This document shows, piece by piece, positions 10,256 through 15,039 of a stretch of 64,000 nucleotides of DNA. Positions within the stretch are counted from its first letter, which is position 1. Each line of letters begins with the position of its first letter. A program made the translations under genes and the position numbers. This DNA is from Gemmatimonadota bacterium. Its GTDB lineage: Bacteria > Gemmatimonadota > Gemmatimonadetes > Gemmatimonadales > GWC2-71-9. A model generated the notes under the pieces. The model made no database searches and was not told the DNA's origin. It was given only the letters and a program-made list of their open reading frames with translations. The DNA lies in contig QHTZ01000099.1 in NCBI GenBank assembly GCA_003221005.1, positions 1-64,000 on the forward strand, read 5' to 3'.

Positions 10256-10278
10256 CTGCGAAGTCGCGCGGATTGGTT

Positions 10279-10312
10279 ATCGAGTGCCAGTGTCTACCGG
10301 CTGGCACTCGAT
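10279..10312. promoter_or_regulatory. Perfect 12-bp inverted repeat (ATCGAGTGCCAG-N10-CTGGCACTCGAT)
   Basis: Read directly; lies between the lipoprotein stop and the CHAT gene ATG at 10330; no downstream T tract. Confidence 0.7.
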
Positions 10313-10329
10313 TCATATGGGAGTTCTGC

Positions 10330-12966
10330 ATGGCGCGTGGCGCAGATCAGCGCTGGCACCGCGCACCGGCATGGCTGTGCATCGCGGCCAGCCTGTGCGT
10401 GGCTCTCCCGGCCCTGCCCGCACTTCCGTCACTCTCCTGCCAGGTTACGGGGTTAGTGACCGCTCGAGACTCGGCCGACGCGACCGCCCGGGATGGGGAT
10501 GCCGCCTACGAGCTGGGCACAAAGCAAGGAGCCGAGTCATCGATCCTCCACTATCTGCGTGCCGCAGAATCTTATCGCCGGATCGGCGCGCTGCCTCAGA
10601 TGGCGGAGATGCTCAGCAACATCGCGTATGTGCATAACAGCCTCGGTAGGCCGGACTCTGCGCTTGTCTATTACAGCCGGCTCATCGTGCTCCTCCGCGA
10701 ATCCCACCAACGCGCCGGCTTGGGCGAGGCGCTCAGCCGAGTGGGAGAGGTCTACCATGGGCTAGGGCAAATGGACTCGGCCCTTTTCCACTACCGAAAC
10801 GCCCTCGTCCTCGCACGGGAAGCGCAAGATCGTCGAACCGAGGGTCGAACGCTCAGTAACATCGGGGTCGCGTTCCAAGCGCTCGGCCGTCCCGACTCCG
10901 CGCTCGGTTACCTCAACCGTGCGTTGGTAATTAGGCAGCAGCTCGGTGACAGCGTGGGGGAAGGCGTCACGCTCAACAATCTCGCGATGGTGCTTCAGTT
11001 GCTGGGCCGTCCGGATTCCGCGCTCGTTTACCTGCGTCACTCCCTGTTGCTCCGCCGCGCGGTGAAGGACCGCGCCGGAGAAGGGACGACGCTGAACAAC
11101 ATCGGCTATTCCTTCGAGCAGCTTGCTCAGCGCGACTCCGCTCTCGCCTACTACCGCGAGGCCCTGCTGGTACTCCGCGAAGTCGGGCGGCGTTGGACCG
11201 TGGGCATTACCCTGGCCAACATGGGTCGCGTGTGGCTCGAGCTTGGGCGGCTCGACTCGGCGTTGGTTTACTTGAACGAGGGACTGGGCTTGAAGCGGGA
11301 GGTCGGAGACAAAGCCGGCGAGACGTGGGCTTTGAATGACCTCGGTCGGGTTTATCAGTCCCTCGGCCAGCCCGATACGGCAGTGAGACTTCTGAACCAG
11401 GCGCTTGCTCTGCTGCGCGAGGTCGGCGATCGCGCGCGCGAGGGAGAAACGCTCTACAACCTTGCTCAGGTGTTTCACCGCTCCAAACGTGACTTCCGAG
11501 CCGCCGTCGCGTACTACGATTCCGCCTCAGCTACGCGGGCTCAAGTCGGCCGTTTCGCCGGCGGCGACGCTAACCGCCTGAGCTTCGCCGAGCAGGACGT
11601 CCAGCTCTACCAGAACTGGGCGCTGGCGTGGCTCGCATGGCCGAACGGCGTGGGCGGCGTGAGTGCGGAGGCGGGCGCCAGGGCTTCGCTGGCGGCGGCA
11701 GAGCGCGGCCGGGCGCAGGCACTCCTGGACCTGATGCGCGGGACGTCTCGGGAAACCGGCCCAGGCCGGGACCTCGCCACCGAAGGTGGGCAACTCCTGG
11801 CGCGCGCCACCCACGGCGGCGCCGCCGTGCTCTCCTACCTCGTCACTCAAGACACGCTGTTGTTGTGGGTGGGGGTGCCTGGGGGCGAGGTCGTCGTCGT
11901 GCGCCGCGCCCTGCCGCGCGACACGCTGGCGCAGCTCGTCGGGGCGTTTCGCGCTGCGCTCGGAGCGGGTGAGCGTGCGGGTCGCGGGCGGCTTGCGTTG
12001 CGGGGCGGCGGGCCGGTCGAAGGCGTGGCGTTCGGGGGGCTTGGCGTCCGGCAAGTGAACACATCGTCCCTCGACTCCGTCGCCCACACGCTGAGCGCGC
12101 TGCTGTTGCCGCCTGGCCTCGGGCAACGCCTGGGGGCGGCCCGGGAGATCGTGGTGGTGCCGCACGGGTCGCTGGGGTTAGTGCCGTTCGCGGCGCTGTT
12201 CCTCGACTCAAGCGCCGCGCCGCTCGGCAATCGCTACGCGGTGCGGTATGCCCCGTCGCTCGCCGCCCTGGGCGAAGCGGAAGCCCGAGCTGGCTTGCCC
12301 ACGGGCTCGGCCCAGACTACAGCGCTTCGCACGGCGCTCGTGGTAGGGAATCCCGTGATGCCGACGAAGTCGAGCTCCGGCGAGACGTTTGCGCTCGGGC
12401 CGCTGCCGCAGGCCGAAGCCGAGGGGCGGTGGGTGGCCCAGCGGCTTGGGACGCCAGTTCTGGTCGGCGCCCAGGCCTCCGAAGCCCAGGTGCGGGGGCG
12501 CCTGCCCCGGGCAGCCGTCGTTCACCTCGCCACGCACGGCTACGCGTATGCCGCCGAAGCCCGCGCGCGCCAGTCGTTCATCGCCTTGGCACCCGGGGCC
12601 GGCCAGGACGGCTTCCTAACGGTTGGGGAGGTGTTGGACGATCCGGCGTTCAAGCTCCGTGCCGACCTCGTGGTGTTGAGCGCCTGCCAAACCGGCCTCG
12701 GTGACTTGAAGCAGGCCGAGGGGACTGTGGGGCTGCAGCGCGCGTTCCTCGCCAAGGGCGCCCGCAGCGTGCTGGTGAGTCTGTGGAGTGTGTCGGACGA
12801 GGCGACAGCGCTGTTAATGAAACACTTCTACACCCACTGGCTCGGCGACACGGATCATCCGTCGAAGGCGGAGGCGCTCAGGCGGGCGCAGGAGGACGTG
12901 CGCGCCCGGCCAGAGTTCCACGAGCCCAAGTATTGGGCGGCGTTCGAGCTGGTGGGGGCGGGGTGA
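10330..12966 (+). CDS. TPR-repeat CHAT-domain (caspase-like) protein with N-terminal export signal
   Basis: Series of regular TPR units (LGRPDSALVYY...); CHAT motifs HLATHGYAY (His) and VVLSACQTGLGDLKQAEGTVGLQRAFLAKGARSVLVSLWSVSDEAT (Cys); hydrophobic N-terminus ending SLSC. Confidence 0.92.
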   Translation: MARGADQRWHRAPAWLCIAASLCVALPALPALPSLSCQVTGLVTARDSADATARDGDAAYELGTKQGAESSILHYLRAAESYRRIGALPQMAEMLSNIAYVHNSLGRPDSALVYYSRLIVLLRESHQRAGLGEALSRVGEVYHGLGQMDSALFHYRNALVLAREAQDRRTEGRTLSNIGVAFQALGRPDSALGYLNRALVIRQQLGDSVGEGVTLNNLAMVLQLLGRPDSALVYLRHSLLLRRAVKDRAGEGTTLNNIGYSFEQLAQRDSALAYYREALLVLREVGRRWTVGITLANMGRVWLELGRLDSALVYLNEGLGLKREVGDKAGETWALNDLGRVYQSLGQPDTAVRLLNQALALLREVGDRAREGETLYNLAQVFHRSKRDFRAAVAYYDSASATRAQVGRFAGGDANRLSFAEQDVQLYQNWALAWLAWPNGVGGVSAEAGARASLAAAERGRAQALLDLMRGTSRETGPGRDLATEGGQLLARATHGGAAVLSYLVTQDTLLLWVGVPGGEVVVVRRALPRDTLAQLVGAFRAALGAGERAGRGRLALRGGGPVEGVAFGGLGVRQVNTSSLDSVAHTLSALLLPPGLGQRLGAAREIVVVPHGSLGLVPFAALFLDSSAAPLGNRYAVRYAPSLAALGEAEARAGLPTGSAQTTALRTALVVGNPVMPTKSSSGETFALGPLPQAEAEGRWVAQRLGTPVLVGAQASEAQVRGRLPRAAVVHLATHGYAYAAEARARQSFIALAPGAGQDGFLTVGEVLDDPAFKLRADLVVLSACQTGLGDLKQAEGTVGLQRAFLAKGARSVLVSLWSVSDEATALLMKHFYTHWLGDTDHPSKAEALRRAQEDVRARPEFHEPKYWAAFELVGAG

Positions 12967-13788: not shown

Positions 13789-14664
13789 CTACGGCCCCGC
13801 GGCGACCGCTTCGAGCGCCCCCTGATTCGGGGGCGCTTGGTATTTGAAGAACCGGTACAACAGCCAGAGATCGAGCGTGCCCACGCCTGCCAGGACCGAG
13901 AACGCGGCACCGCCCTCGATCACGTGAAGCTGCTGTAGCAGCGTCGAAATGCCGAACCCCACGACCCACGCGTCGAAGCTCATGCAGATCCGCCGGAACG
14001 TCTCGGGCCGCACCTGACGAATGACCCACGTACCGAGCGGGATGCCGATGACGAGACTGGGAAGGATGTAGGGCAGCAGGCCCGCGCTCTCCGTGGAGAA
14101 CATGCCCGCCAGGTAGTATGCCACGGCGGTGAAGGTGGATTCCGACAGCCTGACCAGCCCGAGCGCGGCTCGGAAGTCCCGCTTCGCGAGACCCTGGTTG
14201 TTCAACATGATCGCGAGGGGCGGTCCGGAGATTGTCGTCACCGAGTACAGCACCCCCAGGCCGCCGCCGAACGCCAACCCCACACGGCGCTCGGCGCGGA
14301 TCGGCTTGCGGAACCCCGCGGCCTGGAGCAGAATCAGCGGCAGCAGCACCACGAACGTCGCCAGCTTCAGCCACCCGGGGTGGACCCGGTGCACCACTGA
14401 CGTCCCCACGACGACGCCGGGGATCAGCCCGAGGATCATGGGGGCGACGCGGCGCCACACGTGCGGCACGCTCGACCGATTGACCCAGAGGACGTAGCCG
14501 TTGAGCACGACCTCGACCCACACCAGCGCCGGGTTGAGGATCCGATTGGTGTAAAAGAGCAGCGCCACCGGCACGGTGATCGACGAGAACCCGTAGCCGA
14601 GCGCGCCGTTGACGGTGGCCGCGAGCAGCGTGATGAGGATCAGAGCGAGCGAGGCTGATGTCAT
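13789..14664 (-). CDS. TauE/SafE family sulfite exporter-like permease
   Basis: Multi-TM; GALGYGFSSITVPVALLF, GGGLGVLYSVTTISGPPLAIMLNNQGLAKRDFRA typical of TauE/SafE. Confidence 0.85.
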   Translation of the reverse strand: MTSASLALILITLLAATVNGALGYGFSSITVPVALLFYTNRILNPALVWVEVVLNGYVLWVNRSSVPHVWRRVAPMILGLIPGVVVGTSVVHRVHPGWLKLATFVVLLPLILLQAAGFRKPIRAERRVGLAFGGGLGVLYSVTTISGPPLAIMLNNQGLAKRDFRAALGLVRLSESTFTAVAYYLAGMFSTESAGLLPYILPSLVIGIPLGTWVIRQVRPETFRRICMSFDAWVVGFGISTLLQQLHVIEGGAAFSVLAGVGTLDLWLLYRFFKYQAPPNQGALEAVAAGP

Positions 14665-14769
14665 GGCTCAGATGCCCCGCCCTGCTGAGCCGCAGTATGC
14701 CGTGTACCGCCTGTCATTAGCATCCCTATCCCCCGGCTTCGCTGTCCGCTCCGTGTGAGCACGTTCGAC

Positions 14770-14804
14770 AAAAAAGGCCCGGCGCACGCTGGGGTGGCCG
14801 GGCC
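14770..14804 (-). terminator. Rho-independent terminator in the 5' region of the tauE-like gene (candidate attenuator)
   Basis: Minus strand GGCCCGGC-N13-GCCGGGCC followed by TTTTTT; no minus-strand gene immediately upstream. Confidence 0.85.
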
Positions 14805-14841
14805 TGGAAGTGCTCAGTGAGTGAAGAGGCTTAGGGATTCC

Positions 14842-14928
14842 TCATGTCGTCCACTGGCGCGCCGTGGCGTCCGTCCAACCCTGCGGCTGGCGGCGACAAC
14901 AACACGCGCGACGACACATCACAGTCAT
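14842..14928 (-). CDS. Candidate Cys-rich leader peptide MTVMCRRACCCRRQPQGWTDATARQWTT
   Basis: 28-codon ORF with Cys-Arg-Arg-Ala-Cys-Cys-Cys; all Cys encoded by TGT; between a promoter-like sequence and the terminator. Confidence 0.45.
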   Translation of the reverse strand: MTVMCRRACCCRRQPQGWTDATARQWTT

Positions 14929-14947
14929 GTTCACGTAACGGGCATGG

Positions 14948-14977
14948 AACCTAGACCGACCCGGGGCGCGTTGTCAA
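14948..14977 (-). promoter_or_regulatory. Sigma70-like promoter TTGACA-N18-TAGGTT
   Basis: Minus-strand TTGACA (14977-14972) and TAGGTT (14953-14948) upstream of the leader ORF. Confidence 0.5.
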
Positions 14978-15039
14978 CCCTGCACGGCGCGGCGCGAGCA
15001 GCGGTTGACACACCCGCCGCGCAGAATCGAGATTCCGCC

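Follow-up and report, generated by a model that had tools for sequence, protein, structure and literature searches.

The tauE gene in the window, a stretch of 64,000 nucleotides (G+C 69%) from the Gemmatimonadota MAG of a soil bacterium (2.79 Mb in 141 contigs), is preceded by a short leader which, judged from its sequence, is very likely a cysteine-responsive, ribosome-mediated transcription attenuator. Sequence comparison established the parts of this leader, showed them to be conserved and found them repeatedly in front of genes for sulfate assimilation. On this basis we are highly confident that the leader is real and has a role in sulfur metabolism, and it very probably serves as a switch turning on sulfur uptake at cysteine shortage.

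Architecture of the tauE leader

In the initial annotation a promoter, a leader ORF with Cys codons, an intrinsic terminator and the tauE start (ATG 14664) were read from the minus strand, and all of them were recovered at the same coordinates (Table 1).

Table 1 Features of the tauE leader in the window and of the second leader in the same genome
Feature	Position	Strand	Basis and remarks
-35 element TTGACA	14972..14977	-	sequence; TTGACA/TTGACG with 17-nt spacing in 8/9 other tauE leaders
-10 element TAGGTT	14948..14953	-	18-nt spacer; TAGGTT/TAGCTT/TACGTT/TAGTCT in relatives
Alternative in-frame GTG start of leader ORF	14934	-	
Cys-codon leader ORF MTVMCRRACCCRRQPQGWTDATARQWTT*	14842..14928	-	ATG 14928, TGA ending 14842; tandem Cys codons of relatives in register with promoter-proximal start
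Fourth leader Cys codon, TGT	14914-14916	-	
TGT TGT TGT, presumed stall site	14896..14904	-	conserved in own-family leaders and G087
Region 1, CCGCCAGCC	14885..14893	-	predicted to fold with region 2 if no ribosome is stalled; 85% of cells paired, 9 leaders
Region 2, GGGTTGGACGG	14871..14881	-	partner is region 1, or region 3 (candidate antiterminator)
Region 3, CCGGCCACCC	14792..14801	-	overlaps terminator 5' arm and loop; nearly invariant in 9 leaders
Intrinsic terminator AGGCCCGGC-N13-GCCGGGCCT + TTTTT	14770..14805	-	sequence; in all 9 aligned leaders
TauE/SafE (TSUP) permease, regulated gene	13789..14664	-	Pfam TauE PF01925, E 3e-25
Second Cys-rich leader	L183:11650-11797 (own genome, contig C61)		before cysH-cysG-sir

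The tandem Cys codons are unremarkable as a motif, TGYTGYTGY occurring 18 times within the 64-kb window, and an ORF of the form start-CCC-stop is found in ~0.7% of random 330-nt stretches. Since the Cys triplet alone is not above chance, the case for a leader rests on conservation. TGT makes up only 17% of the Cys codons in the genes of the window (26 TGT, 129 TGC) but is used for each of the four in the leader.

The first ATG lies 8-10 nt past the -10 box in 8/9 tauE leaders with a recognisable promoter, which points to leaderless mRNA in the relatives, and the same layout was found for 7/9 promoters of cysC/H leaders. The window leader, with an in-frame GTG at +13 and the ATG at +19 nt past the -10 element, is less clearly leaderless. 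A leaderless or near-leaderless start would explain why, as remarked earlier, there is no strong Shine-Dalgarno sequence.

The arms of the terminator stem are located at 14805-14797 and 14783-14775 and the T run reaches 14770. None of 200 dinucleotide shuffles matched this terminator, which is therefore no chance occurrence; it is missed by a simple terminator scan because its loop measures 13 nt.

Conservation and parallel leaders before sulfur genes

A DNA search of 121 related genomes located the block of promoter, Cys ORF and terminator just 5' of TauE in five further genomes. With 102 family genomes and 395 phylum genomes, the close TauE orthologues came to ten in total, each preceded by the leader. 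Tandem Cys codons were present in 10/10 of these Gemmatimonadota leaders, together with a terminator in each, which is common to the nine own-family leaders and different in the remote G087. Conservation upstream of TauE orthologues had been named in the initial annotation as the check on its reading, and the outcome is in its favour.

Across the aligned leaders TTGACA, the -10 box, the tandem Cys codons, GGGTYGGACGG and the terminator are kept. The triple Cys codons are retained in 8/9 own-family leaders and in G087 (as TGT TGT TGC), and two of the three in G129. In both G129 and G132, 5 nt are inserted directly past the Cys codons, which shifts the frame and leaves region 2 intact, so that the C-terminal part of the leader peptide is dispensable. 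In G040 (L010, upstream of 1501) the Cys codons and the terminator are present and the promoter and start codon are gone; this leader is either a copy that has decayed or the product of an assembly join.

The SerA gene of the divergent operon had been noted as fitting a sulfur/cysteine theme. The isochorismatase/SerA operon is located on other contigs in the 5 relatives in which both genes were found, and because the isochorismatase gene lies on another contig in these genomes, the leader travels with tauE and SerA is a chance neighbour; the neighbourhood was rejected as evidence. A pattern of TTGAC, spacer and Cys run, applied to the own genome and the 102 family genomes, returned mostly chance matches in genes with initial Leu codons.

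A second, sequence-distinct Cys leader (MPRTCATTVCCKACCMCARSLGSGHGGGALSGGNRT) with promoter and terminator was found in the window's own genome before cysH-cysG-sir. In G044, tauE is divergent to cysC-cysH-sat, with a separate Cys-rich leader on either side, and in genus g16 (L231, L225, L230) a third Cys leader stands 5' of a sulfite reductase gene (NIR_SIR). G087 has a single leader followed by tauE, cysD, cysN and cysH in a row. The PAPS-reductase domain (PF01507) was detected in 31/102 family genomes, including 8/9 TauE genomes; the one without it, G129, is 73% complete. In the aligned cysC/H leaders the gaps in the ORF part are multiples of three and those 3' of the ORF are not, which supports translation of the leader ORF. 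One Cys leader per strand, driving divergent sulfur genes, was also observed at L188:9253-9669 and in L185, L062 and L063. At position 1500 of L141 and L142 (genus g28), TTGACA/TAGGTT is followed by an in-frame TTG ORF with CCCSC; this stretch is identical in both genomes, overlaps the start of a short gene and may be a chance occurrence.

Among Acidobacteriota, several tauE orthologues are preceded by Cys-rich ORFs, e.g. MTDIRCCCCCRCACIGPTMRR, and L068 repeats the complete architecture with the terminator near the tauE ATG. A Cys-rich ORF was found 5' of cysD in 10/12 Acidobacteriota genomes, each of the 10 leaders containing a strong terminator 40-115 nt before the cysD match, as opposed to none of 10 cysD loci without a Cys ORF; because these genomes are mutually related, the counts do not amount to independent trials. 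Among the 12, the genome of L089 carries the public label Acidimicrobiia, groups with the Acidobacteriota loci by sequence and may be mislabelled. A Cys leader is followed by the gene of a TonB-dependent receptor in L063 (416-3001), there directly before tauE, and in L076 (153-2966), which suggests that an outer-membrane receptor belongs to the Acidobacteriota sulfur regulon.

By its sequence context, TauE is a gene of sulfate assimilation. The gene lies immediately 3' of cysH in L074, L075 and L131 (Rokubacteria, Vicinamibacterales and deltaproteobacterial records). Its product is probably a permease for sulfate uptake and less likely an exporter of sulfite; the operon with cysDNH speaks for this, as does the precedent of CysZ from C. 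glutamicum (Cg3112, DUF81), which is required for growth on sulfate (PMC1266029). CysZ belongs to the membrane proteins of the DUF81/TSUP group and its gene is found together with cysDNH (PMC1266029); the TauE of the window is likened to it by family and context.

RNA folding, proposed mechanism and alternatives

Four elements of the model are inferred: that the ribosome stalls, that an antiterminator forms, that cysteine is the signal, and which substrate is transported. RNA polymerase would start near 14940, and the leader ORF would be translated from a leaderless or nearly leaderless start. With sufficient Cys-tRNA, the ribosome would pass the four TGT codons and regions 1 and 2 would pair, upon which region 3 and region 4 would form the terminator and transcription would end before tauE. 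With Cys-tRNA scarce, the ribosome would be stalled at TGT TGT TGT and cover region 1; region 2 would then pair with region 3, the terminator would be blocked and tauE transcribed, resulting in more uptake of sulfur, probably sulfate.

Two-state folds were computed on RNA ending before the terminator 3' arm, the stalled state being defined by a ribosome on the Cys codons. The predicted probability of pairing between regions 2 and 3 was 0.00-0.03 in the unstalled versus 0.64-0.81 in the stalled state, in 9/9 own-family tauE leaders. In the alignment of the tauE leaders 98.8% of cells are paired for regions 2 and 3; in the cysC/H leaders region 2 (GGGGAGCGG) is fully complementary to CCGCTTCCC, with 95% of cells paired. 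The energy of the 2:3 duplex in the tauE leaders is not stronger than that of dinucleotide shuffles (p 0.2-0.6), as expected at such G+C; for the cysC/H leaders and two cysD leaders the corresponding comparison was significant in part. A generic statistic, pairing of the terminator 5' arm with upstream sequence when stalled, gave mixed values and did not discriminate. At equilibrium the terminator prevails in most leaders even in the stalled state, and the attenuator model therefore needs kinetic folding.

No antiterminator had been seen by eye in the initial annotation. A candidate, region 2 with region 3, can now be named; it is plausible as a good model, not a result, and our confidence in the exact pairing is moderate. 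Covariation of terminator and antiterminator stems, which had been suggested as a check, did not appear in the aligned leader pairings, the columns of which are invariant or hardly vary. The reading as a cysteine attenuator was otherwise largely supported, with like architecture before cysH-cysG-sir, cysC-cysH-sat, sir and cysD.

A polycysteine leader might also act mainly via translation or Rho, the hairpin being secondary, as proposed for mycobacteria. The mycobacterial cys leaders are without terminators and Rho was suggested there (PMC1262725), and the unproven statistics of the antiterminator would suit such a mode of action; however, in two phyla the Cys leaders of tauE, cysC/H and cysD come with strong intrinsic terminators, and before cysD these are missing wherever the Cys ORF is missing, so that we regard it as unlikely. 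Still less probable is a separate small RNA or small protein, whose own transcript would end at the terminator, with tauE expressed from a promoter of its own. The short transcript with its terminator would fit an sRNA too, and in the window the terminator is 105 nt away from the ATG of tauE, but the distance is only ~45 nt in relatives and, for the parallel leaders of G128 and L068, ~20-40 nt to the start codon, which leaves little space for a second promoter. Moreover, the element is always 5' of sulfur genes, and Rfam gave no match at the gathering score in the window and chance-level matches only in this region; in addition, the frameshift that G129 and G132 show right behind their Cys codons means that the C-terminal part of the peptide lacks conservation.

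Copper sensing by Cys-rich leader peptides is known, CruR of Bordetella being an example, and a Cys-rich arrest peptide might likewise respond to copper or redox instead of Cys-tRNA. Against this, the regulated genes serve sulfate transport, activation and reduction, with no metal gene among those identified, and the runs of Cys codons are conserved within a variable peptide; we consider it highly improbable. Attenuation by Cys-tRNA is in keeping with the regulated genes being those of the end-product pathway, namely tauE-cysD-cysN-cysH in G087 and the genes behind the sister leaders.

Relation to known cysteine leaders

Candidate cys leader peptides were described in Actinobacteria by Seliverstov et al. 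(2005), who stressed the absence of a terminator (PMC1262725), and leaderless cysteine-rich ORFs were reported by Shell et al. (2015; PMC4633059). For mycobacteria, cysteine-responsive attenuation was reported by Canestrari et al. (2020; doi 10.1111/mmi.14498), as cited in PMC13236596 and PMC9094748. Predicted attenuators of Acidobacteria were almost all left without an associated function by Naville and Gautheret (2010; PMC2965389). In the openly accessible literature covered, no description of terminator-based cysteine attenuation was found, nor of any cysteine attenuation in Gemmatimonadota.

The mycobacterial polycysteine ORFs resemble the present ones in being short and leaderless, which the window leader is less clearly, with Cys runs before sulfur-assimilation operons and cysteine as the presumed signal. 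They differ in that the mycobacterial leaders have no conserved terminator (PMC1262725), whereas each leader here has an intrinsic one, in the phyla concerned and in the TauE-type permease as the regulated gene of the window; the leaders were compared by description, not by sequence. The window leader would thus work like the mycobacterial polycysteine attenuators, yet is not classed as a member because of its conserved terminator. With the trp, his and thr attenuators it shares the run of end-product codons, the order of protector, candidate antiterminator and terminator, and the terminator just before the first gene; unlike in these, a leaderless or near-leaderless start would replace the Shine-Dalgarno sequence and several copies per genome would form one regulon. 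To our knowledge, the classical attenuators of Proteobacteria do not include one for cysteine.

Across Gemmatimonadota and Acidobacteriota, the uptake and assimilation of sulfate are probably under the control of a cysteine-attenuation regulon consisting of several leaderless or near-leaderless poly-Cys leaders with intrinsic terminators per genome. It would be a previously unreported counterpart of the mycobacterial leaders and may have evolved independently of them. The terminator-based variant of the cysteine leader, in two phyla besides Actinobacteria, is new. In Actinobacteria, where terminators are missing, the route from the stalled ribosome to expression was left open; with the terminator plainly present here, cysteine attenuation in its classical form becomes testable. 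Two poorly studied soil phyla gain a concrete sulfur regulon, permeases annotated as TauE/SafE are assigned to sulfate assimilation, and the leader design provides a search signature for more members.

Two further observations concern neighbouring genes of the window. The mechanically predicted ORF of the divergent isochorismatase overruns the leader (14821-15039, plus strand), the homologous start being ATG 15040, and a TPR-CHAT domain protein (PF12770) of the caspase-like protease family is encoded at 10273-12966 on the plus strand.
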